38,823 nucleotides of DNA from a virus, in the IMG/VR virus record IMGVR_UViG_3300027782_005306, positions 1 through 38,823 of that record. One strand, written 5' to 3'. A program made the translations under genes and the position numbers. Positions within the stretch are counted from its first letter, which is position 1. Every line of letters starts with the position of its first letter. Shown here in pieces: positions 9,589 to 38,823 of this stretch. The notes below the pieces were generated by a model. The model was given only the letters and a program-made list of their open reading frames with translations, did not search any database and had not been told where the DNA came from.

Positions 9589-10187
9589 CCTGTAACTACC
9601 TCGTAAATGTGCTTCCAATTTTTTACGAGGGTTACACCAGGATGATAGTGAGTCATGTTGTGGCCGTGTTCTATAAGTAGCGGATTAAGACCATACTTAT
9701 AACCGGCCTCAGCATTTTCTGGTTTATCTTCAATCCAATGGAATCCGGTGCCTTCATATTCTTCTAGGGCTTCGTCTTTATGAGCACCAGTGTCCAAACA
9801 TACAATCCGTTCAAATGTATGCTCGCCAAACAACTTGCTTAGATTCATTTCACGGAGTCGTTGTGCATTTGGATCTAAACTTAAGGATGTGATACAGTGG
9901 AACCTGTAACCGTGTTCTTCGACCAATCTTTTGACATAGTACATGGCATCACGTTGGGCGGGTAAGAAACCAATTGCGGCACTTTCGTTAAAAAGACGTA
10001 TGAGTTTGACCACCTGTTCTCTTGGAATGCCGTAGCGTACTGCCATGTCGTAATTGAGTTTACTGCCAGGAACTTCCTCAAATCCGTGTTCCTGCATCCA
10101 TACATTAAAAGCCCATTCCCAATCTAACAAACAACCGTCAGCATCGGTTAGGATAAGTTTTTTTCTATTTCTATATTTCGATTTCAT
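9576..10187 (-). CDS. HAD-superfamily phosphatase (5'-nucleotidase-like)
   Basis: 203 residues from ATG 10187. HAD motif I is LTDADGCLLDWEW (Asp15 nucleophile, Asp17 acid), motif II is the ITSLS segment, and motif IV is IEDKPENAEAG. The helical cap between motifs I and II and overall size resemble phage 5'(3')-deoxyribonucleotidases or imidazoleglycerol-type HAD proteins. It may dephosphorylate nucleotides for the phage pool, which is inference. The start is the only sensible one because the upstream promoter's TATAAT ends 6 nt before it; no Shine-Dalgarno, so a leaderless mRNA is likely. Confidence 0.82.
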   Translation of the reverse strand: MKSKYRNRKKLILTDADGCLLDWEWAFNVWMQEHGFEEVPGSKLNYDMAVRYGIPREQVVKLIRLFNESAAIGFLPAQRDAMYYVKRLVEEHGYRFHCITSLSLDPNAQRLREMNLSKLFGEHTFERIVCLDTGAHKDEALEEYEGTGFHWIEDKPENAEAGYKYGLNPLLIEHGHNMTHYHPGVTLVKNWKHIYEVVTGQSA

Positions 10188-10193
10188 AGTATT

Positions 10194-10222
10194 ATTATAC
10201 TTGAAATGGAATTTATGGTCAA
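10194..10222 (-). promoter_or_regulatory. sigma70-type promoter giving a leaderless HAD message
   Basis: TTGACC (10222-10217), 17-nt spacer, TATAAT (10199-10194), then 6 nt to ATG 10187. The -35 overlaps the stop of the SDR gene. The predicted +1 is the A of the ATG. Shares ATTTCAAGTATAAT with the promoter at 31062-31090. Confidence 0.85.
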
Positions 10223-10854
10223 CCGAAGTTAAGAATAGTACCGTTTGGGTAGTAGATTTTACCATTTAAATCAGTGGTATGTTCAATTAGTTTGACAATT
10301 TTGATAGCTTTATCTACATCATCCTTGTTTCCAACTGATTCTGGATTAATACCAAAAAAGGTAGCTGGAAAATTTTGTGCAAATGATTTCATAATGCATC
10401 CGTTGGTAAATTTGTTACCAATATAATCGGCAAATCCAACTTGTGTAGCTATTGGATTAGATATTAGCTCTGATAGCATCCACCCAATTTTGGTAGTGCT
10501 CGATATCTTATTTTTTAACGAGTGTATTAGATAAAATGGAAACTGACAGGCTACAAAATAGCTTTGTTGCCAATCTTTAAAACTTTGTATTTGATTTTGA
10601 TTAAACTTTGTTTGAGTTAGTGCTGACGCATTATGATTAAAAAATATTAAATCTAAATTGGGCAAATTTGAGATTATATCGCGTAGGTCTTGTAATTTTA
10701 ATTCGTGCCAATTAATAGAAATTACTGTGACATTTGGGTTGGTGACTTGTTGCGATCCAGTAATTAAATAAACGTGGTATCCTGCCTGTACTAACTGTTC
10801 CGTTATTTTGCTACCAAATTTTGATCCGCCACCGGTGATCAAGCAATTTTTCAT
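10219..10854 (-). CDS. short-chain dehydrogenase/reductase
   Basis: 211 residues with SDR landmarks: nucleotide-binding TGGGSKFG (7-14) near the N terminus, FFNHNAS in the NNAG position, a Ser in IGWMLSEL, and ADYIGNKF giving the catalytic Tyr-x-x-x-Lys. Substrate unknown. It is short for a classical SDR (about 250) but complete in its active site. It overlaps the upstream radical SAM gene by ATGA (10851-10854), so it belongs to that operon and may act on the same product. AT-rich like the two radical SAM genes beside it, suggesting that the three were acquired together. Confidence 0.78.
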   Translation of the reverse strand: MKNCLITGGGSKFGSKITEQLVQAGYHVYLITGSQQVTNPNVTVISINWHELKLQDLRDIISNLPNLDLIFFNHNASALTQTKFNQNQIQSFKDWQQSYFVACQFPFYLIHSLKNKISSTTKIGWMLSELISNPIATQVGFADYIGNKFTNGCIMKSFAQNFPATFFGINPESVGNKDDVDKAIKIVKLIEHTTDLNGKIYYPNGTILNFG

Positions 10855-11993
10855 ATGTTTAACTCACTAAAAATATTACGCCAATTGGTATTACGAAGAT
10901 GATCTAGTTGATCAAAATACTTAATGTATCCTATATTGTCTTCTACTGGCAATTGTAACTCTGTTCGGCATCGTAAAATGTTATAGTATGAATTGGATTG
11001 CGGAGTCACCAATCCCGAAGCAAGTAATTTTTCTAGACGAGCAAGTGTTTTTTCTTTTAACTCTGGCCCAGCATTGCGAGATAGTAAGTAACTATGCCCT
11101 TCTAATTGATTAATAGTAATGTCCGTAACATTGTGATTAACTATAAAATATTCAATATTATCAAAAATCGTAGCTAAACTTCCAATAAAAAATACAGAAT
11201 TGAGCCGCAGATCATGTCCTAATTTTTTTATGTTTTCAAGATTATCAGTAAACTTAGCCCAATTGCCACCGTTACGAATATATTCAAATCTTTTACTATT
11301 TGCTTCTGCACTAACAGTCCATAGTACATTTTTAAATTTCTTAATTTCGGCGAATACAAGATTGTTGTCATTTGCTACACTGATATTAGAATTAACTCTT
11401 AGTGGTAGTTCTTTATTTTCTATTTGTGCTAATAGCGTAGCATTATGTTTGATTAGTAAAGGTTCGCCGCCGGAAAAGTAAATCTCCTTCATTACATATT
11501 GATTCTTTACAATCATCTCAATAATTTTATCAATATTTGCTGTACTTGACTTACGTACTGTTATGTTTTGTTCTTCGGCAATTAAACTGCTTTGTGAGGG
11601 ATTGCAGTATACACATTTAAAATTACAAGTATTATTCCAATGTAGGTCGATGCCGTGTAGTTCAAATGCCTGGGTATTTTCGTAATCGATGTCAAAACTT
11701 TTAAACATTGGATTATAATGATTTCTTAAATCATAATGCTCACCCCGGGTGGTAAGTTTGTGACATCCAGAACAATTTGTATTTAATTTGTCGGCCAGCA
11801 AATCATCTTTAATAGATTTAATTTTATTGTTGTTTAAAATATCTTCTATACTGGTTTCATTGATATTTCCAAAAGCTGACCCTTTGGAACAAGTTCTAAT
11901 ATCACCGGTTGACCATACTTCAAAGTGATTCCACGGCACAGCACAAAAATGTTGTGATTGCTTAAACAACCAAAATTTTTTTTTAGGATTCAT
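10851..11993 (-). CDS. radical SAM enzyme with additional Cys-rich N-terminal region
   Basis: 380 residues. The radical SAM [4Fe-4S] motif is CNFKCVYC (123-130), followed by EIYFSGGEPLL (GGE motif binding SAM). The N-terminal part carries Cys17, Cys35 and the pair CSGC (74-77), arranged like a SPASM or twitch auxiliary-cluster region moved before the core. The C terminus ends LDHLRNTNWRNIF, very like the end of the radical SAM protein at 27950-29341. Function unknown; relatives modify peptides or small molecules. The start overlaps the 96-aa gene by 11 nt and the stop overlaps the SDR gene by 4 nt. Confidence 0.82.
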   Translation of the reverse strand: MNPKKKFWLFKQSQHFCAVPWNHFEVWSTGDIRTCSKGSAFGNINETSIEDILNNNKIKSIKDDLLADKLNTNCSGCHKLTTRGEHYDLRNHYNPMFKSFDIDYENTQAFELHGIDLHWNNTCNFKCVYCNPSQSSLIAEEQNITVRKSSTANIDKIIEMIVKNQYVMKEIYFSGGEPLLIKHNATLLAQIENKELPLRVNSNISVANDNNLVFAEIKKFKNVLWTVSAEANSKRFEYIRNGGNWAKFTDNLENIKKLGHDLRLNSVFFIGSLATIFDNIEYFIVNHNVTDITINQLEGHSYLLSRNAGPELKEKTLARLEKLLASGLVTPQSNSYYNILRCRTELQLPVEDNIGYIKYFDQLDHLRNTNWRNIFSELNI

Positions 11994-12273
11994 TTTTTAC
12001 AGCCTCGGTTTTGATATCAACAGGATGCCCGTTTTCTCTTAATAATCTTTCCATGATAGCAGGATAAAATGGATAGTAATAACCTACAATACGATCCCAA
12101 TCTTTAGGAATGGTTGTATCACGCAAGGCGGCCTTGATAACTTTTTGTTCTTTAAAGTCTAGAATTACGCTAGCAGTTTGCGAATCTTTAGTTCTAACTC
12201 GGGTAGCCACAGTCATTCCTTCATCGATTTTACCATTGGCCTGGTAATAGTAGGTTAACATTAAGTATCTCAT
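11983..12273 (-). CDS. conserved phage protein between two radical SAM genes
   Basis: 96 residues beginning MRYLMLTYYYQANGKIDEGM. Contains VILDFKEQKVIKA and TIPKDWDRIVGYYYPFYPAI, an alpha/beta pattern without Cys or signal peptide. From memory, similar proteins occur in T4-like cyanophages near the clamp-loader genes, so it is probably an old phage gene rather than a partner of the radical SAM enzymes. AAGGAT precedes the ATG; its start overlaps the stop of the upstream radical SAM gene and its end overlaps the next radical SAM gene by 11 nt. Function unknown. Confidence 0.75.
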   Translation of the reverse strand: MRYLMLTYYYQANGKIDEGMTVATRVRTKDSQTASVILDFKEQKVIKAALRDTTIPKDWDRIVGYYYPFYPAIMERLLRENGHPVDIKTEAVKNES

Positions 12274-13406
12274 ATAGCATAATCCTTTTGGTATTTTTTC
12301 ATAATTGAGTTATATGTATCTAAATTCTTAGCCTTGGGCGCACAAAGTCCACACAAGCAATTGTATTTTTTACATTGTATTACCGGCAAGGTGTGTGTGT
12401 CAAGTTGTTTTGTTAATTTAGATAATATTTCTTTGGTATTATTTAAATTTCCAATTGGTCCTACAGAACCATCGAAGTTCATCTTGCAATCTTTGTTAAC
12501 GTACACTTCTCCATTGACTTGTTTAACGTACAGGAAAAAATGATTAACACTACAATACCAATCAGGAAATTTATTGTCAACATAAAAATGTCGTTGTCGA
12601 TAGTTTTGGTCTGTACAGGTTTGCCGGCCGCCACAACATGCCCTGCCGACGTCAGTTAAATTTGATTGTACTTTATCTTTTAAAAGGTCAGTATTTTTAC
12701 CAAAAGTTTTTGTTTGGTATAGATTATCAAACCATTGTACTTGAAACTCATTATAGATTCTATTGCCGTCTATTCCTGCGTTACCATCGAGTTGTCTCGG
12801 CAATATTTTAATATCATTTTGTGTTAACCACTCAATCATACCAGTAGCGTCTTGAAAATGTTCATTTTCCTGATGCATAAGAACTACACATTTTTGTCTC
12901 TTGCCCGATTGTTTAATTGTTAACAAATTGTCTTTAAATTGTTGTTTTTGTCGATCTGTGCTTTCTGTATGATAGCTTACGGTAAATTCATCAATCAACG
13001 GTATAATTTGTTTCAGTTTTTTGTCAGATATAATAGCATTAGTTGTAGTAGTGACTGTTAGATGCCAACGGTCACAGTACGGTTGATATTTTTTTCTAAC
13101 TTGACTTAAGATTTTAACAATGTCTGGATGATGCAAACTTTCACCACCGTATACATTAAGAATTACATATTTAATACCTTTAGGTTTTGTATTCATATAC
13201 AAATCCACGTACTCAAACATGAAGTCAATTGAATCTAAGCATTCTGATATTGGGGGATGTTTGGTGCTGTTATCATGGCTGCCATATAATCCAGTATCGC
13301 AATAGCTACAATCAAGATTACACTTCATTGTTAATTCCCAATCCAATAAAAAGCTAATTCTGTTGTTGGGATCTATTGCAGGTTCAAGAACTTCAAAGTC
13401 GGGCAT
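12270..13406 (-). CDS. radical SAM enzyme with C-terminal SPASM-like Cys cluster
   Basis: 378 residues. The radical SAM motif is CNLDCSYC (29-36) and the GGE equivalent is NVYGGESLHHP. The chain continues as a TIM-type barrel (VTTTTNAI, VVLMHQEN) and ends in a Cys-rich region: ACCGGRQTC, WYCSVNH, NKDCKMNF and CKKYNCLCGLC, enough ligands for two auxiliary clusters. Such enzymes commonly modify peptides, but no precursor peptide is evident here. TAATG overlap with the clamp-loader gene and ATGA overlap with the 96-aa gene. Substrate unknown. Confidence 0.83.
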   Translation of the reverse strand: MPDFEVLEPAIDPNNRISFLLDWELTMKCNLDCSYCDTGLYGSHDNSTKHPPISECLDSIDFMFEYVDLYMNTKPKGIKYVILNVYGGESLHHPDIVKILSQVRKKYQPYCDRWHLTVTTTTNAIISDKKLKQIIPLIDEFTVSYHTESTDRQKQQFKDNLLTIKQSGKRQKCVVLMHQENEHFQDATGMIEWLTQNDIKILPRQLDGNAGIDGNRIYNEFQVQWFDNLYQTKTFGKNTDLLKDKVQSNLTDVGRACCGGRQTCTDQNYRQRHFYVDNKFPDWYCSVNHFFLYVKQVNGEVYVNKDCKMNFDGSVGPIGNLNNTKEILSKLTKQLDTHTLPVIQCKKYNCLCGLCAPKAKNLDTYNSIMKKYQKDYAI

Positions 13407-14326
13407 TACAAGTTGCTCAGTTCACACAGGGTGGCACTTAAATTAATTTCTTGATCAGCTACTAGCGGAACATTTACCAACCCATTGCGAATAATAATAA
13501 TTGCTTGATCTTGTTTATGTGGATCGGTTGACCACAAATCTAAATTATCATACATCCAACGGAATATTTCATCGGCTTCTTCCGGAGTACTTTGTTGGCA
13601 CATTAATTTTCGTGCTTCGATTATTTTACCTGACTTAAACAAATCTACACAATCTAATTTCCAATCACCCACACTTTTATCTGTTGTGTTAGGTGCATTT
13701 AGTTGGCCTGTTTGACTGTTTTGTTGTAGTAACTGTAGACATTTGCGCAAGTCAGGATAGGTAGCACGAACATAACTGTCCAAGGTATCAATATCAAACT
13801 CTATACCTTCTGTGACCAACACCGTGGCCGCACGGGCTGTAAACTCTGTGTGATCTGTTTTTAGGATATGTAACTGTTGGAGTCTTGAATGTAAGGGTGG
13901 AATAATTTTGTTAGGATAGTTACAGGTTAAAATAAAGCGGACGCTATGACTGTAGTCTTCCATTAGATTACGCAAGGCTGGTTGAACACTTTGCGGATTC
14001 ATATAATCTGCTTCGTCAATAAACACAACCTTAAACTTACCGTATGGCATGGTTTGACAAAACGAGATCAGTTTGTCTACCCACTCAATTTTACGGGCTT
14101 CTTTACTACCATTGGCATATAGCACATCGTACTCATCTACACCAAGCTCGTTAATCAACATCTTACCTAAAGTAGTTTTACCGGTACCTGGACTACCACT
14201 AAACAACAGATTTGGAATGCTACCGTCTTTAATCCACGACTCAACTTGTTGCCGTTGATTATCATCTACAAATACATATCCGTCTACGGTTTTTGGCCTG
14301 TATTTCTCTATCCAAAGTTCTTTCAT
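13406..14326 (-). CDS. sliding-clamp loader ATPase (T4 gp44 / RFC small-subunit type)
   Basis: 306 residues. MKELWIEKYRPKTVDGYV is the usual RFC-box start; Walker A is GSPGTGKT (44-51), Walker B KVVFIDEADYMN, and FILTCNYPNKIIPPLHSRLQ supplies sensor 1 and the SRC-like motif. The C-terminal collar domain follows. It would open and load the phage sliding clamp at primer ends. No gp62-type partner or clamp gene is in the window. ATGA overlap with the preceding 62-aa gene. Typical of T4-like replication modules. Confidence 0.93.
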   Translation of the reverse strand: MKELWIEKYRPKTVDGYVFVDDNQRQQVESWIKDGSIPNLLFSGSPGTGKTTLGKMLINELGVDEYDVLYANGSKEARKIEWVDKLISFCQTMPYGKFKVVFIDEADYMNPQSVQPALRNLMEDYSHSVRFILTCNYPNKIIPPLHSRLQQLHILKTDHTEFTARAATVLVTEGIEFDIDTLDSYVRATYPDLRKCLQLLQQNSQTGQLNAPNTTDKSVGDWKLDCVDLFKSGKIIEARKLMCQQSTPEEADEIFRWMYDNLDLWSTDPHKQDQAIIIIRNGLVNVPLVADQEINLSATLCELSNL

Positions 14327-27938: not shown

Positions 27939-27967
27939 ATTATAGCAGATTAATCGGTTATTGTCAA
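27939..27967 (-). promoter_or_regulatory. sigma70-type promoter
   Basis: TTGACA (27967-27962), 17-nt spacer, TATAAT (27944-27939). It overlaps the stop of the radical SAM gene. An 18-bp block, TGCTATAATGTATGTATA, is identical in the promoter at 33487-33515. Confidence 0.85.
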
Positions 27968-29341
27968 TTTGTGTTTGGCAAACTCATCCACTAACCAAGG
28001 AAATGTTTGTTTCCAATTGGTATTTCTGCGTTGGTCCATTTGATTTAAGAAATTAAATAACCTAGTTATTTCTGGTATATTAGGAACACGGCTAGCAGAT
28101 TGGGTTGCTATGCCTTCAAGGTATTGTCTACTGGCCCGTTCTTCTAGGGTACTGTCTGGTTTGAACGATAGTGCTTTTTTAAAATCTTCAACAAATATAT
28201 CACCAAAAATATCTATAAACATATAGCTGGGACTATTTACACTATTTTGATAGTGCCAGACTCGTCGAGTCTGATTCCAGATCTGTATTTTTTCTAGTAG
28301 ATTGGGCAGGGTTTTTACAGTCAGCGGAGTCACTGTTGAACTCACAATTAGATTTATCCAATCTTGCCCTAGCAAGTATTCAAAATTCTTTTCCCAATTT
28401 TCTAAATCCAATGGGTATCGAACGTATTCTTGTGGTGCTCCCCAACAGTCCAGACTGGCAGTGATTTCAAATTCTCTCAGTTTGTCTTGGTCAATCAACT
28501 GTTGGACTCGTTGTACTATTTTTTGTAGATGTGATAATCGACAGTTAAGATTGGTAAAAATTTGTAATTTGAGTTCGGGTGCTGGATGCTGATCAAATAT
28601 ATCCAAGCATTGTTCTAATTCACGTTGATACAGTGGCTCGCCACCTAGGACGTTAAACACTGTGAGATTGTGCCCGTGCTGACGCAACCAGTCAAAAATC
28701 TTTTGCTTGTTCTGTTCAATATTGGAGCTCTTGGCAAATGGTTTGAGTCCAAAACGTACATTTTCAGCGTCCCATAAACTGCTAAAATGTGGCCCACAGT
28801 ACAGGCATTTGAGATTACAGGTATTGTCAAAATACACTTCCAAAATTCTAGGAGTCACCTGTACAGCCTGCGGGTCGTGATCTAGTTCGGGCGGTGCATG
28901 GATACCAGGAAAATCCAAATTGGTAATCCTGTCACTTTGGCCACCTGCTTGCTCGATATCCTGACAATAGTTACACCCTTGTTGGGGCCATTGCCCTTGC
29001 AACATCCTTTCTCGATCGTCGAGTTTGCTAGGAGTATTATGAAAATCAAATTTGTCAGTATCAAATTTATGATGATCGGTCCTATGACAACTGGCTGTTT
29101 CTTCTGTGGTTAAAAATATAGTGCTCCAGTTCCACTTGAGCTGACAGGCTGTAGATGTATTGATAGGGAAAACTTTATTTTTTAACTTTGAAGTTTTGCG
29201 AAAACTACCCGGCACATACCCAAAATTATCAATGCATTCGGATTTTATGTGTGCAGGTAACTGATCAAAATCAGATTCTGCGTGGCAGTCGGGCCAACTA
29301 GTATCACGTATTTGTTCGTAAAATTCTTGCCAGGTACTCAT
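27950..29341 (-). CDS. radical SAM enzyme with Cys-rich N-terminal extension
   Basis: 463 residues. CNLKCLYC (175-182) is the radical SAM motif and NVLGGEPLYQ the GGE motif. The first 170 residues contain Cys66, Cys85 and CNYC (123-126), possibly ligands of an auxiliary cluster. The ending LNQMDQRRNTNWKQTFPWL matches the end of the 380-aa radical SAM protein (LDHLRNTNWRNIF), so the two belong to one subfamily. Substrate unknown; relatives act on peptides or small molecules. TAATG overlap with the gene upstream. Confidence 0.82.
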   Translation of the reverse strand: MSTWQEFYEQIRDTSWPDCHAESDFDQLPAHIKSECIDNFGYVPGSFRKTSKLKNKVFPINTSTACQLKWNWSTIFLTTEETASCHRTDHHKFDTDKFDFHNTPSKLDDRERMLQGQWPQQGCNYCQDIEQAGGQSDRITNLDFPGIHAPPELDHDPQAVQVTPRILEVYFDNTCNLKCLYCGPHFSSLWDAENVRFGLKPFAKSSNIEQNKQKIFDWLRQHGHNLTVFNVLGGEPLYQRELEQCLDIFDQHPAPELKLQIFTNLNCRLSHLQKIVQRVQQLIDQDKLREFEITASLDCWGAPQEYVRYPLDLENWEKNFEYLLGQDWINLIVSSTVTPLTVKTLPNLLEKIQIWNQTRRVWHYQNSVNSPSYMFIDIFGDIFVEDFKKALSFKPDSTLEERASRQYLEGIATQSASRVPNIPEITRLFNFLNQMDQRRNTNWKQTFPWLVDEFAKHKLTITD

Positions 29342-36124: not shown

Positions 36125-36856
36125 TTACAGTTTAGTTAAACAGTCAACCCACTCTGTTGTTCGCAACCAATTGGTATAAATCTTATCGGCTGTAGCTTGA
36201 TGTTGTTCTAAATGAAAAGGAATACCATTGAGCATACTAATCTTATCTTGAACTGAGTCATAACGACTTCTAGCATCGGCCCATTTGGAATCATCTTCAT
36301 AAACCCACGAATCAATCTTGTTTTCGTTGATTTCTATATGGAACTGCATGGCTAAATGTGGACCAATAGCCCAGGCTTGATTAGGACATGCTGGTGATGT
36401 AGCCAGTCTAACGGCTCCAGTTGGAATACTGAATGATTCGTAATGCCATTGTATAACCGTATCTGTTGGCGTGTCACCAAACCACTGTTTAGTTAACGCT
36501 GTATCTTCGTAGGCAATAGATTGCCAACCTATTTCAGGTTGTGGACTTGCAGTGATAACACCACCTAAGGCTCTAGACATTAGTTGCCCACCTAGACAAT
36601 GTCCTATGACAGGGATGTCTCTATACATGGCCTGTAGAATTAATATTTCTGCGGCACGACTACTAGGTAGCGGATCGTTGGCACTCATGCCACCACCCAT
36701 TAGTGCCAAGGCCGAGTAGGGTTCTATGCTGGTAGGGAATTCATCACCGGCACCAGCATTGGCAACTTGATACTGAACGTGGTTGCGTTCTAACCATGTG
36801 GTCAAATATGCTGCGTTTTCTGGAACTTGATGTTGTAAGATTAAAACAGGTTTCAC
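36125..36856 (-). CDS. type 1 glutamine amidotransferase (GMP-synthase-like)
   Basis: 243 residues from GTG 36856 (MKPVLILQHQVPENAAYLTT), preferred because homologues of this type usually begin at this strand and because TAAATA ends 4 nt upstream; an ATG at 36913 would add 19 residues but overlaps the riboswitch on the other strand. ALALMGGGMSANDP, VIGHCLGGQLMSRALGG (nucleophile Cys), LAMQFHIEINENKIDSW (catalytic His and Glu). Such stand-alone proteins hydrolyse gamma-glutamyl bonds (for example Puu/YfeJ-type). Substrate unknown. Confidence 0.83.
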   Translation of the reverse strand: MKPVLILQHQVPENAAYLTTWLERNHVQYQVANAGAGDEFPTSIEPYSALALMGGGMSANDPLPSSRAAEILILQAMYRDIPVIGHCLGGQLMSRALGGVITASPQPEIGWQSIAYEDTALTKQWFGDTPTDTVIQWHYESFSIPTGAVRLATSPACPNQAWAIGPHLAMQFHIEINENKIDSWVYEDDSKWADARSRYDSVQDKISMLNGIPFHLEQHQATADKIYTNWLRTTEWVDCLTKL

Positions 36857-36903
36857 CGGGTATTTATTGCGGTAAACTAAACATGTTTTTAAGTGTTTGG
36901 TAA

Positions 36904-37027
36904 ATATTTGCATGGGGAGTAGTCCACTCTTATCTTAAGAGTTTTATGCATCGTCATTACGGCTTTACGGCTCGGTGCATAAGGAAATGGGTTCCGGACA
37001 AGACCATAATATCATAGTATATTATGG
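36904..37027 (+). promoter_or_regulatory. yybP-ykoY (Mn2+) riboswitch upstream of terC
   Basis: The segment has the invariant GGGGAGTAG (36914-36922), a P2 hairpin ACTCTTA/TAAGAGT (36926-36932, 36936-36942), a 10-bp arm TTATGCATCG/CGGTGCATAA (36944-36953, 36973-36982) containing TCGTCA, a small GGAA/TTCC hairpin, and the 3' consensus ACAAGACC (36998-37005). P1 can form from ATGG and an upstream ATATT with CCAT and AATAT. CCATAATAT (37004-37012) can instead pair perfectly with ATATTATGG (37019-37027), a ready expression platform. The gene downstream is TerC-family, the known target of this Mn2+-sensing RNA. A GGTAAATA late box at 36899-36906 would start the RNA at about 36912. Confidence 0.82.
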
Positions 37028-37090
37028 ATCACGTAATCCTCATTATCTCTCTGCATGAATTCACAGGTTCTGACGACAGTTCCATGATAT

Positions 37091-37106
37091 ACTCTTTTAA
37101 AGGAGT
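37091..37106 (+). promoter_or_regulatory. hairpin enclosing the terC ribosome site
   Basis: ACTCTTTTAAAGGAGT can fold as ACUCUU/AGGAGU with a UUAA loop, hiding the AGGAG ribosome site 7 nt before ATG 37113. It could be the translational output of the riboswitch. Confidence 0.5.
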
Positions 37107-37112
37107 AGTAAA

Positions 37113-37805
37113 ATGGAAGTATTCGCACTACAAGCCCTATGGGCAGTTTTAGCTATCATCTTGATAGACATTGTGTTAGCCGGTGACAACGCACTAGTCA
37201 TTGGCATGGCCGCCAACAAGTTGCCACCGGAGTTGCGTAAGAAAGCAATCTTCTGGGGTACCTTTGGTGCTGTGGCCATACGCTTTGTGTCGGTTGCACT
37301 TTTAACTTACTTGTTAATGATACCCGGGCTACGCTTGATAGGTGGCTTGGCATTGCTTTGGATAGGCTGGAAGTTGGTGTTTGATCAGCACACCGACGAA
37401 TCAGTGGCCAGCAAGACCACACTAGGCGGTGCCGTATCAACAATCATTGTGGCCGACGCTGTCATGGGCATTGACAATGCACTAGGTATTGCGGCCGCCG
37501 CTAACGGTGACTTTGGACTGGTTGTATTTGGCTTGTTGATCAGCGTGCCTATCATACTATTTGGGTCTAGCGTTGTCAGCCGGGTGCTAGCTCGCTGGCC
37601 TGATGTGGTGTTTGCAGGTAGCTTTGTGTTGTTTGTTGTGGCTATCCAAATGCTGTTCAAAGAACCTTTGTTGGCCGGCTGGTTAAGTGGTTTACCCGGT
37701 TGGGTTGTAGCAAGTTTACCTTGGACTGGTGGATTCACAATTATGGCAGTACAGTATGCCCGGGCTAGATTAGGTCTAGTCAAACGCTACTGGAACAAGA
37801 AATAA
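37113..37805 (+). CDS. TerC-family (YjbE/YkoY-type) membrane protein, probable Mn2+ exporter
   Basis: 230 residues with about seven membrane segments. Two internally related acidic signatures are clear: LAIILIDIVLAGDNALVIGM (about 13-32) and VADAVMGIDNALGIAAAANG (about 113-132), with the conserved Asp/Asn residues that line the metal path in TerC proteins. It also has the family segment LRKKAIFWGTFGAVAIRFVS. TerC proteins of the Alx/YkoY group move Mn2+ out of the cytoplasm. A strong AAAGGAG ribosome site and a Mn2+ riboswitch upstream agree with this. A strong terminator follows. Codon use and GC look like the surrounding phage genes. Confidence 0.88.
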   Translation: MEVFALQALWAVLAIILIDIVLAGDNALVIGMAANKLPPELRKKAIFWGTFGAVAIRFVSVALLTYLLMIPGLRLIGGLALLWIGWKLVFDQHTDESVASKTTLGGAVSTIIVADAVMGIDNALGIAAAANGDFGLVVFGLLISVPIILFGSSVVSRVLARWPDVVFAGSFVLFVVAIQMLFKEPLLAGWLSGLPGWVVASLPWTGGFTIMAVQYARARLGLVKRYWNKK

Positions 37806-37830
37806 AAAAAGCCCCGAAAGGGGCTTTTTA
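37804..37830. terminator. bidirectional Rho-independent terminator
   Basis: GCCCC GAAA GGGGC (37811-37824) flanked by an A-run on the left and a T-run on the right, between convergent terC and ahpD. It serves both strands. Confidence 0.92.
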
Positions 37831-37846: not shown

Positions 37847-38353
37847 TTAACTGTTTAATACCTTGGCAACACTATTCATAACACTGGCAATACGTCCAAT
37901 GTCACGAAGTTGTTCCACTGTGTAGCCTTCTTGCTTTAGTGTTTCGTAATGTGCTTTGACACAGAAGTGACACTTGCCAACAATACTAGCCGCCAAGCTG
38001 AATGCTTCAAAATTTGACTTAGTAGTTCCACCATGACTTGCAATAGCATTCATGCGTAACTGTGCCGGTAAACCTTTTAGAGCAGGATCATCTGCCATTT
38101 CAATGTATGGATACCATACATTGTTTTGTGCCATGATACTTGCGGCTGTCATTGCGGCATCTGCGTGAACAGGTGCGTCTGCCAAAATCAAACTTACTAG
38201 TTTACCGTTGCCAGTTGCGGCCAAGGCGGCCACAGCACAACCCATGGCCACATCCGCATCCAATGTGCTACGCAAAAGCACAGCATCAAGGTTTAACTTG
38301 GTGTCCTTTGCGTAGTCTGGCAAGGCTTCTTTGACGGCGTCATTAAATGCCAT
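37847..38353 (-). CDS. ahpD: alkyl hydroperoxide reductase AhpD
   Basis: 168 residues. The AhpD/CMD signature is KCHFCVKAHYETLKQEG, with the CxxC pair Cys128 and Cys131, His135, and Glu116 in NFEAFSLAAS, in the positions of the mycobacterial proton-relay residues. It reduces AhpC, linking it to a lipoyl-protein electron source in the mycobacterial system. TAATG-type junction with the ahpC stop (38353). GGAG upstream. Normal full length. The AhpC it follows is also of the type that uses AhpD rather than AhpF. Confidence 0.93.
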   Translation of the reverse strand: MAFNDAVKEALPDYAKDTKLNLDAVLLRSTLDADVAMGCAVAALAATGNGKLVSLILADAPVHADAAMTAASIMAQNNVWYPYIEMADDPALKGLPAQLRMNAIASHGGTTKSNFEAFSLAASIVGKCHFCVKAHYETLKQEGYTVEQLRDIGRIASVMNSVAKVLNS

Positions 38354-38823
38354 TACAATGTCTCTCCACCTACTGTGCGATTACATGCACATAGCTCGCC
38401 AGTCTGTAGTGCATCCAATACACGAAGTGTTTCTTCTGGACTACGACCTACGTTCAAGTTGTTGACAGTAACATGCTGGATAACATTCTCTGGGTCAACG
38501 ATGAATGTTGCACGAAGTGCGGCACCTGCTGGAGCATAGAACACGCCCAACTGTTCGATCAAACTCAACTCGCCACGCTGTGTGTCAGCAAATTGATTGT
38601 GTGTAATCTTCTTCAAATCAGCATGGGCATTTTGCCAACTAACTTTACAAAACTCATTGTCTGTGCTTCCTGTTAGCAAGATAGCATCACGGTCAGCAAA
38701 GTCTGCGGCCAACTTGTCATAAGCTACAATCTCTGTTGGGCATACGAATGTAAAATCTTTTGGATAGTAAACGATTACTTTCCATTTACCCGGAAATGAT
38801 TCTTCTGTGATGTCAAAGAATGC
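38353..38823 (-). CDS. ahpC: peroxiredoxin AhpC (5' end outside window)
   Basis: The frame is open to the right window edge and gives 156 residues, lacking only the N terminus. YYPKDFTFVCPTEIVAYDKL holds the peroxidatic Cys (FVCPTE); STDNEFCKVSWQ and AALRATFIVDPENVIQHVTV follow. The C-terminal ELCACNRTVGGETL has two further Cys, as in the three-cysteine mycobacterial AhpC (ELCACNW), which is reduced by AhpD. It detoxifies H2O2 and organic peroxides. It is the first gene of an ahpC-ahpD operon; promoter and start are outside the window. Confidence 0.93.
   Translation of the reverse strand, partial: AFFDITEESFPGKWKVIVYYPKDFTFVCPTEIVAYDKLAADFADRDAILLTGSTDNEFCKVSWQNAHADLKKITHNQFADTQRGELSLIEQLGVFYAPAGAALRATFIVDPENVIQHVTVNNLNVGRSPEETLRVLDALQTGELCACNRTVGGETL

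Follow-up and report, generated by a model that had tools for sequence, protein, structure and literature searches.

The leader of a phage TerC-family gene, positions 36912-37112 of the DNA studied (here called the window, a 38.8-kb virus contig of IMG/VR analysed over its whole length), is very probably a yybP-ykoY-class Mn2+ riboswitch that acts, under a T4-type late promoter, as a translational ON switch for TerC. Sequence comparison supports the identity of the aptamer, its fusion to a late box, the phage context and the complementarity of the expression platform; Mn2+ binding, the transcription start site, the ON direction and Mn2+ export by TerC are inferred. An earlier note on this DNA, made without database searches, had proposed a Mn2+ riboswitch of this class in front of TerC, and all of the sequence elements it quoted are present at the places it gave, 5' of the TerC open reading frame (Table 1).

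Table 1 Features of the riboswitch-TerC locus in the window
Feature	Position	Strand	Evidence
T4-type late promoter box GGTAAATA, core TAAATA 36901-36906	36899-36906	+	Sequence; same box in relatives; TAAATA enrichment
Inferred late transcription start (+1), A36912, first base of P1.1	36912	+	Inference from T4 box spacing
yybP-ykoY Mn2+ aptamer, four-helix form	36912-37007	+	R1 63.7 bits; RF00080 22.3 bits; fold; covariation in relatives
P1.1	36912-36915/37004-37007	+	AUGG with CCAU
L1	36914-36921 and 37000-37003	+	
P1.2	36922-36925/36996-36999	+	
P2	36926-36932/36936-36942	+	
P3.1	36943-36951/36975-36982	+	
L3, CGUCA	36952-36956	+	
P3.2	36961-36964/36969-36972	+	
P4	36983-36986/36992-36995	+	GGAA/UUCC
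Alternative hairpin A, 9 bp, arms CCATAATAT and ATATTATGG; takes the 3' strand of P1.1	37004-37012/37019-37027	+	Sequence; probability 0.98 in ligand-free fold
UCCUCAU, anti-P1.1, complement of aptamer 5' strand AUGGGGA	37037-37043	+	Pairs with 36912-36918 in ligand-free fold
CCAUGAUAU, pairs with hairpin A arm 37019-37027 (9 bp, ON) or, via CCAU, with start codon AUGG 37113-37116 (OFF)	37082-37090	+	Enforced folds
Shine-Dalgarno hairpin (37090-37096/37101-37107) over AAAGGAG 37099-37105	37090-37107	+	Mean pair probability 0.91 in ligand-free fold
TerC-family membrane protein, 230 aa, regulated gene	37113-37805	+	PF03741 E 4e-41; phrog_7180 E 2e-43
Terminator-like hairpin AGCCCC-GAAA-GGGGCT, then T run; closes TerC unit	37810-37829	+	Sequence reading

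Identification of the aptamer

A cmscan search of positions 36850-37130 against 4227 Rfam families returned RF00080 as the only match (22.3 bits, E 1.8e-4). The gathering cut-off of this family is 45 bits, and no match was obtained when the window was scanned at the gathering threshold. The earlier note had named a score below that threshold as grounds for rejecting the riboswitch, and this was formally the outcome. The cut-off, a curation line and not a biological feature, is too strict here, because only two of the five control genomes having an RF00080 match exceed it and the Polynucleobacter TerC leader scores only 26.1 bits. The phage relative L068 reached 42.9 bits, and a Limnohabitans strain genome contained a match of 105 bits.

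A covariance model, R1, was built from 24 bacteria-only TerC leaders of Burkholderiales and Firmicutes (alignment A1, no phages), with the known helices P1.1, P1.2, P2, P3.1, P3.2 and P4 written onto the alignment. In the window R1 matched 36904-37016 at a score of 63.7 bits (E 2e-13 in a search of 0.68 Mb), higher than those of two validated Mn2+ switches, E. coli alx (48.8 bits) and mntP (45.2 bits). Its 57 further matches comprised 56 phage leaders and one bacterial-type leader, and it gave no match in the leaderless phage TerC loci of the same search. The bacterial-type leader, L148 (IMGVR_UViG_2878865731_000001), stands on a contig classed as viral. It is a Mn riboswitch of the classical form, with a terminator, ahead of a P-type ATPase gene, and was set aside because its sequence most probably belongs to the host, at the edge of a provirus.

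The motifs GGGGAGTAG (36914-36922), TCGTCA (36951-36956) and ACAAGACC (36998-37005) were read directly in the window. L1 (GGGGAGUA with RAGACC) and L3 (CGUCA) occur in order and on the right helices, the Mn-contacting adenosine not having been mapped base by base, and the leader folds better than its own shuffles (z -2.7). The form in the window is the longer one, which has four helices and is followed by a strand-exchange leader; its four-way junction with P4 is absent from the compact relatives described below. The gene controlled by the leader is of the Mn-homeostasis class, meeting a membership feature of yybP-ykoY. Assignment to this family is established at the level of sequence and predicted structure, and the identity proposed in the earlier note holds at that level, without ligand data and with Mn2+ binding inferred.

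A late promoter apparently fused to the aptamer

T4 late boxes occupy positions -13 to -6, with -13 loose (PMC1524935). A TATAAATA-like box at this distance from the start is provided in the window by GGTAAATA, from whose spacing the first base of P1.1 is inferred to be +1. All 42 distinct leaders that had been found via the TerC protein alone have TAAATA at a distance of 4-8 nt upstream of GGGGAGTA, where the background expectation for a late box at that spot is 0.0009 per leader. The spacing was exactly 5 nt in 23 of the 42, and +1 in these relatives would therefore fall on the first G of GGGG. No late box lay beside the aptamer in any of the bacterial leaders scanned. Across the window, TAAATA occurs within 60 nt upstream of same-strand open reading frames 13 times, compared with 1.4 expected (P 5e-10), and the genes concerned include structural genes. 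On this spacing the aptamer appears to be fused to the late promoter without a nucleotide to spare, and a late transcript should start at the first paired bases. The link to late transcription suggested in the earlier note is thereby upheld for the box and its 42 relatives, the start itself being inferred.

Phage origin of the locus

The contig is that of a T4-like phage. Its genes include one for a gp44-type clamp loader (E 1e-74) and part of a DNA polymerase gene, besides those for a holin, an Rz-like spanin, PhoH, endolysins and several virion proteins. The gp55 sigma gene is absent from the 38.8-kb fragment itself; four large contigs have gp55-like open reading frames (E 1e-5 to 9e-9), and the leader is present on three of these. 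The three, 215, 246 and 357 kb long, combine the leader and TerC with gp23 (E <1e-80) and the gp55-like sigma gene. Contig L002 matches the window collinearly, at 84% DNA identity, between the late box at 36901 and position 38823.

The locus could be imagined as host DNA, or as a bacterial riboswitch-terC unit misjoined to phage sequence in a chimeric contig, because TerC lies near the contig end and Polynucleobacter, which has the closest bacterial TerC relatives, has the same riboswitch. This is scarcely credible, and the linkage to phage genes already refutes it. A misjoined unit would not recur on about 90 viral contigs, three of which also encode gp23 and a gp55-like protein, would not have the late box that every one of the 42 phage leaders has and that adjoins the aptamer in none of the scanned bacterial leaders, and would not be collinear with L002. 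The locus is that of a phage, and the chimera that the earlier note had allowed for is excluded by L002 and by the contigs of 215-357 kb.

Distribution and phylogeny

A search of IMG/VR with the TerC protein left 80 loci, most with the leader, and a pattern scan yielded 100 contigs, nearly all of which were confirmed by R1. The leader is thus present on about 90 viral contigs and is not confined to one locus. Pattern matches in L090, L094, L133, L136, L137, L139 and L159 had the wrong spacing and were rejected as chance. The gene after the leader is TerC in most cases and an Alx-type TerC of about 313 aa in others, among them L091, L099, L105, L114, L118, L134, L158 and L161; in L114 and L134 the Alx-type gene is preceded by a small membrane open reading frame (about 40 aa). 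Among isolate phages, 40 records encode TerC, all with less than 60% identity (best 32-39%). The leader DNA had no match among isolate phage records, and the three isolate-phage TerC regions inspected gave no riboswitch match.

In a maximum-likelihood tree, phage and Polynucleobacter TerC formed one clade (100/100) apart from all other bacteria, and the Polynucleobacter proteins were nested inside the phage diversity (92/81). The unit has therefore moved between phage and host, in a direction that is not settled. The nested Polynucleobacter sequences are L185-L191 and L250, and these bacteria may have taken the riboswitch together with the gene from phages. Viral TerC genes without a leader (L057, L059, L061, L069, L072, L073, L075, L076 and L078) formed one clade with the leader-bearing L056 (100/98); these genes seem to have lost the switch or never to have gained it.

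A compact form of the aptamer

Most phage leaders have a compact form in which P4 is replaced, leaving only 5-7 nt (CAAAGA, CGAAGC or similar) between P3 and P1.2, and in which P1.1 is shrunk to about two G-C pairs. Hairpin P4 was present in all inspected bacterial leaders and in the long phage form. The compact helices are well supported by comparison: 98.7% of cells are paired, and 17 of 23 pairs are changed on both sides (0/500 shuffles). In 35 aligned compact leaders L1 (GGGGAGTA) and L3 (CGTCA) are invariant and the helices change freely. A P4-less signature found no true match in 399 Burkholderiales genomes; the single sequence to fit it, L269, was discarded because the match lies in unrelated sequence that lacks the rest of the aptamer. 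Judged by sequence, many viral contigs carry a shortened switch that is not seen in the bacteria examined.

We lean towards the view that the compact leaders represent a new Mn2+ riboswitch architecture: a three-way junction without P4, a P1.1 of two G-C pairs, an RNA that starts at aptamer nucleotide 1 through fusion to the late promoter, and an anti-aptamer drawn from the start codon and codons 3-6, with promoter, sensor and coding sequence evolving as one cassette. A P4-less example is not excluded in the original 2015 papers on the class, which lay outside the literature covered.

Expression platform

Hairpin A is kept in four of four long-form leaders, as are all of the strand-exchange options. 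The helix between CCAUGAUAU and the hairpin A arm has 9 of 9 pairs in three of these leaders and 8 of 9 in one, and the evidence for helix B of the window is limited to the same four. When the ON helices (P1.1 and the downstream helix) were enforced, at a cost of 7.5-10 kcal/mol, the probability that the window AUG is unpaired rose from about 0.01 to 0.94, with values of 0.4-0.9 in the other long-form leaders. In both forms the energy models favour the OFF state, by 8-10 kcal/mol, a cost that, we infer, would have to be paid by tertiary stabilisation by Mn2+ or by co-transcriptional kinetics, neither of which was computed. The 9-bp hairpin that the earlier note proposed would break P1 is present; it is probably not the sole mode of control, which would also involve translation, through strand exchange with the distant hairpin at the Shine-Dalgarno sequence and start codon.

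In compact leaders the start codon is no more than 16-25 nt away. Besides closing P1.1, the CC of GAGACC forms the beginning of a second helix, in which the start codon is the partner (CCAUAA/UUAUGG, CCAUUUUAA/UUAAAAUGG, CCAUUA/UAAUGG). This start-codon helix was longer with the leader's own partner than with swapped partners (5.54 compared with 4.75 +- 0.10, 0/20000), and its probability exceeded 0.5 in 47 of 53 folds. The claim rests on this helix-length permutation, which can be inflated by sequence relatedness since relatedness overstates independence in permutation tests; column-wise covariation of the helix was not significant. The compact AUG was 6% unpaired in the free fold and 67% with P1.1 enforced. 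Pairing of GGGGAGUA with TerC codons 3-6, which reaches 11 pairs in L045, had an energy of -8.0 kcal/mol, compared with -5.8 +- 0.35 kcal/mol for synonymous recodings (0/300), a test that relatedness inflates as well.

Proposed mechanism and alternatives

According to published work, P1.1 is stabilised by Mn2+, and its top two G-C pairs serve as the nucleus of the switch helix (PMC6754395, PMC11087558). In the mechanism proposed for the window, a late RNA polymerase consisting of host core and a gp55-like sigma factor would start the RNA at 36912. At high Mn2+ the nascent aptamer would dock L1 on L3 and P1.1 would be held; hairpin A would therefore be blocked and its 3' arm left free to take CCAUGAUAU, a pairing that would release the start codon and weaken the Shine-Dalgarno hairpin so that TerC is made. 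At low Mn2+, hairpin A and the anti-P1.1 pairing (UCCUCAU) would form, and the Shine-Dalgarno sequence and start codon would stay closed. The predicted outcome is an AND gate, open when infection is late and Mn2+ is high. The compact form may apply the same logic in about 20 nt, the CC of GAGACC having as alternative partners the opening GG of the RNA (ON) and AUGG (OFF), and TerC codons 3-6 being able to pair with GGGGAGUA.

Loss of P4, reduction of P1.1 to about two pairs in the compact form and predicted OFF structures that are much more stable than the ON structures would also suit a genuine yybP-ykoY relative in which Mn2+ sensing has been lost and which serves as a constitutive translation leader or an RNA-stability element. 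Such an element is unlikely, given that L1 and L3 stay invariant across the aligned compact leaders while the helices vary, that the start codon and codons 3-6 keep their complementarity to the P1.1 and L1 strands, and that the leader is found before two different TerC-type families. An OFF direction, or transcription attenuation at hairpin A in place of translational control, has in its favour the strong hairpin directly after the aptamer and the action of other class members on termination (PMC6754395). Hairpin A, however, is A+U rich and is not followed by a T run, the short distance to the start codon leaves no room for a terminator in compact leaders, and the known TerC/Alx members are Mn-induced (PMC13274385, PMC12096827); we give this possibility slightly less weight still than that of a leader that has ceased to sense. 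The translational ON switch remains the preferred reading.

Comparison with known systems and possible function

The Polynucleobacter TerC leader (L185-L191) resembles that of the window in having an aptamer with P4, a TerC of the same clade, a short P1.1 (UUGG:CCAA) and a translation-type leader of 21-26 nt, and differs in lacking the late box and in having a TATAGAAT-like -10 sequence. E. coli alx and mntP share the aptamer core, as detected by R1, and alx encodes a TerC-family Mn exporter; unlike the phage leaders they belong to cellular genes with ordinary promoters, and the P4 of alx is larger. The solved aptamers of L. lactis and X. oryzae have the same layout of L1, L3, P1.1, P1.2, P3.1 and P4, and in them the top two G-C pairs of P1.1 form the nucleus (PMC11087558); they regulate transcription termination, however, and have a four-way junction, P4 being missing from the compact phage form. 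Glutamine riboswitches of the marine myophages Melnitz and Mosig are likewise riboswitches in T4-like phages, with a different ligand, fold and target (tmRNA), and no late-promoter fusion is described in the part of that report available to us (PMC9004378). No earlier report of yybP-ykoY in phages was found in the literature searched, whose coverage did not include the key 2015 papers on the class. Reported phage riboswitches are few, and those found in that literature sense glutamine.

TerC under yybP-ykoY control is Mn-induced and has been linked to Mn efflux or to the metalation of exported proteins (PMC13274385, PMC12096827). Phage TerC, which stands beside peroxiredoxin genes, is likely to act late in the infected cell and under Mn control, in protection or in the handling of metal. 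If the proposal is correct, lytic T4-like phages monitor a metal ion while they infect and make a late metal-transport gene depend on it. Fusion to a late promoter makes the timing testable, and the compact form offers a test of what the aptamer needs, namely whether L1-L3 docking and Mn2+ selectivity are possible when P4 is missing and the switch helix has just two pairs. That about 90 environmental viral contigs carry the leader suggests that these infections are generally under pressure from Mn2+ homeostasis.

Genes recurring near TerC on other contigs encode AhpC, AhpD-like, amidotransferase, glycosyltransferase and phosphoesterase proteins. AhpD-like (CMD) and AhpC/TSA peroxiredoxin genes often adjoin TerC (window 37847-38822, L002, L018, L019, L031 and L068) and form with it a group of Mn and oxidative-stress genes that recurs among these phages. 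Elsewhere in the window, positions 10001-14000 have a low G+C content (32-37%, compared with about 43%) and contain two radical SAM genes next to that of the clamp loader; another gene of this type lies at 27950-29341.
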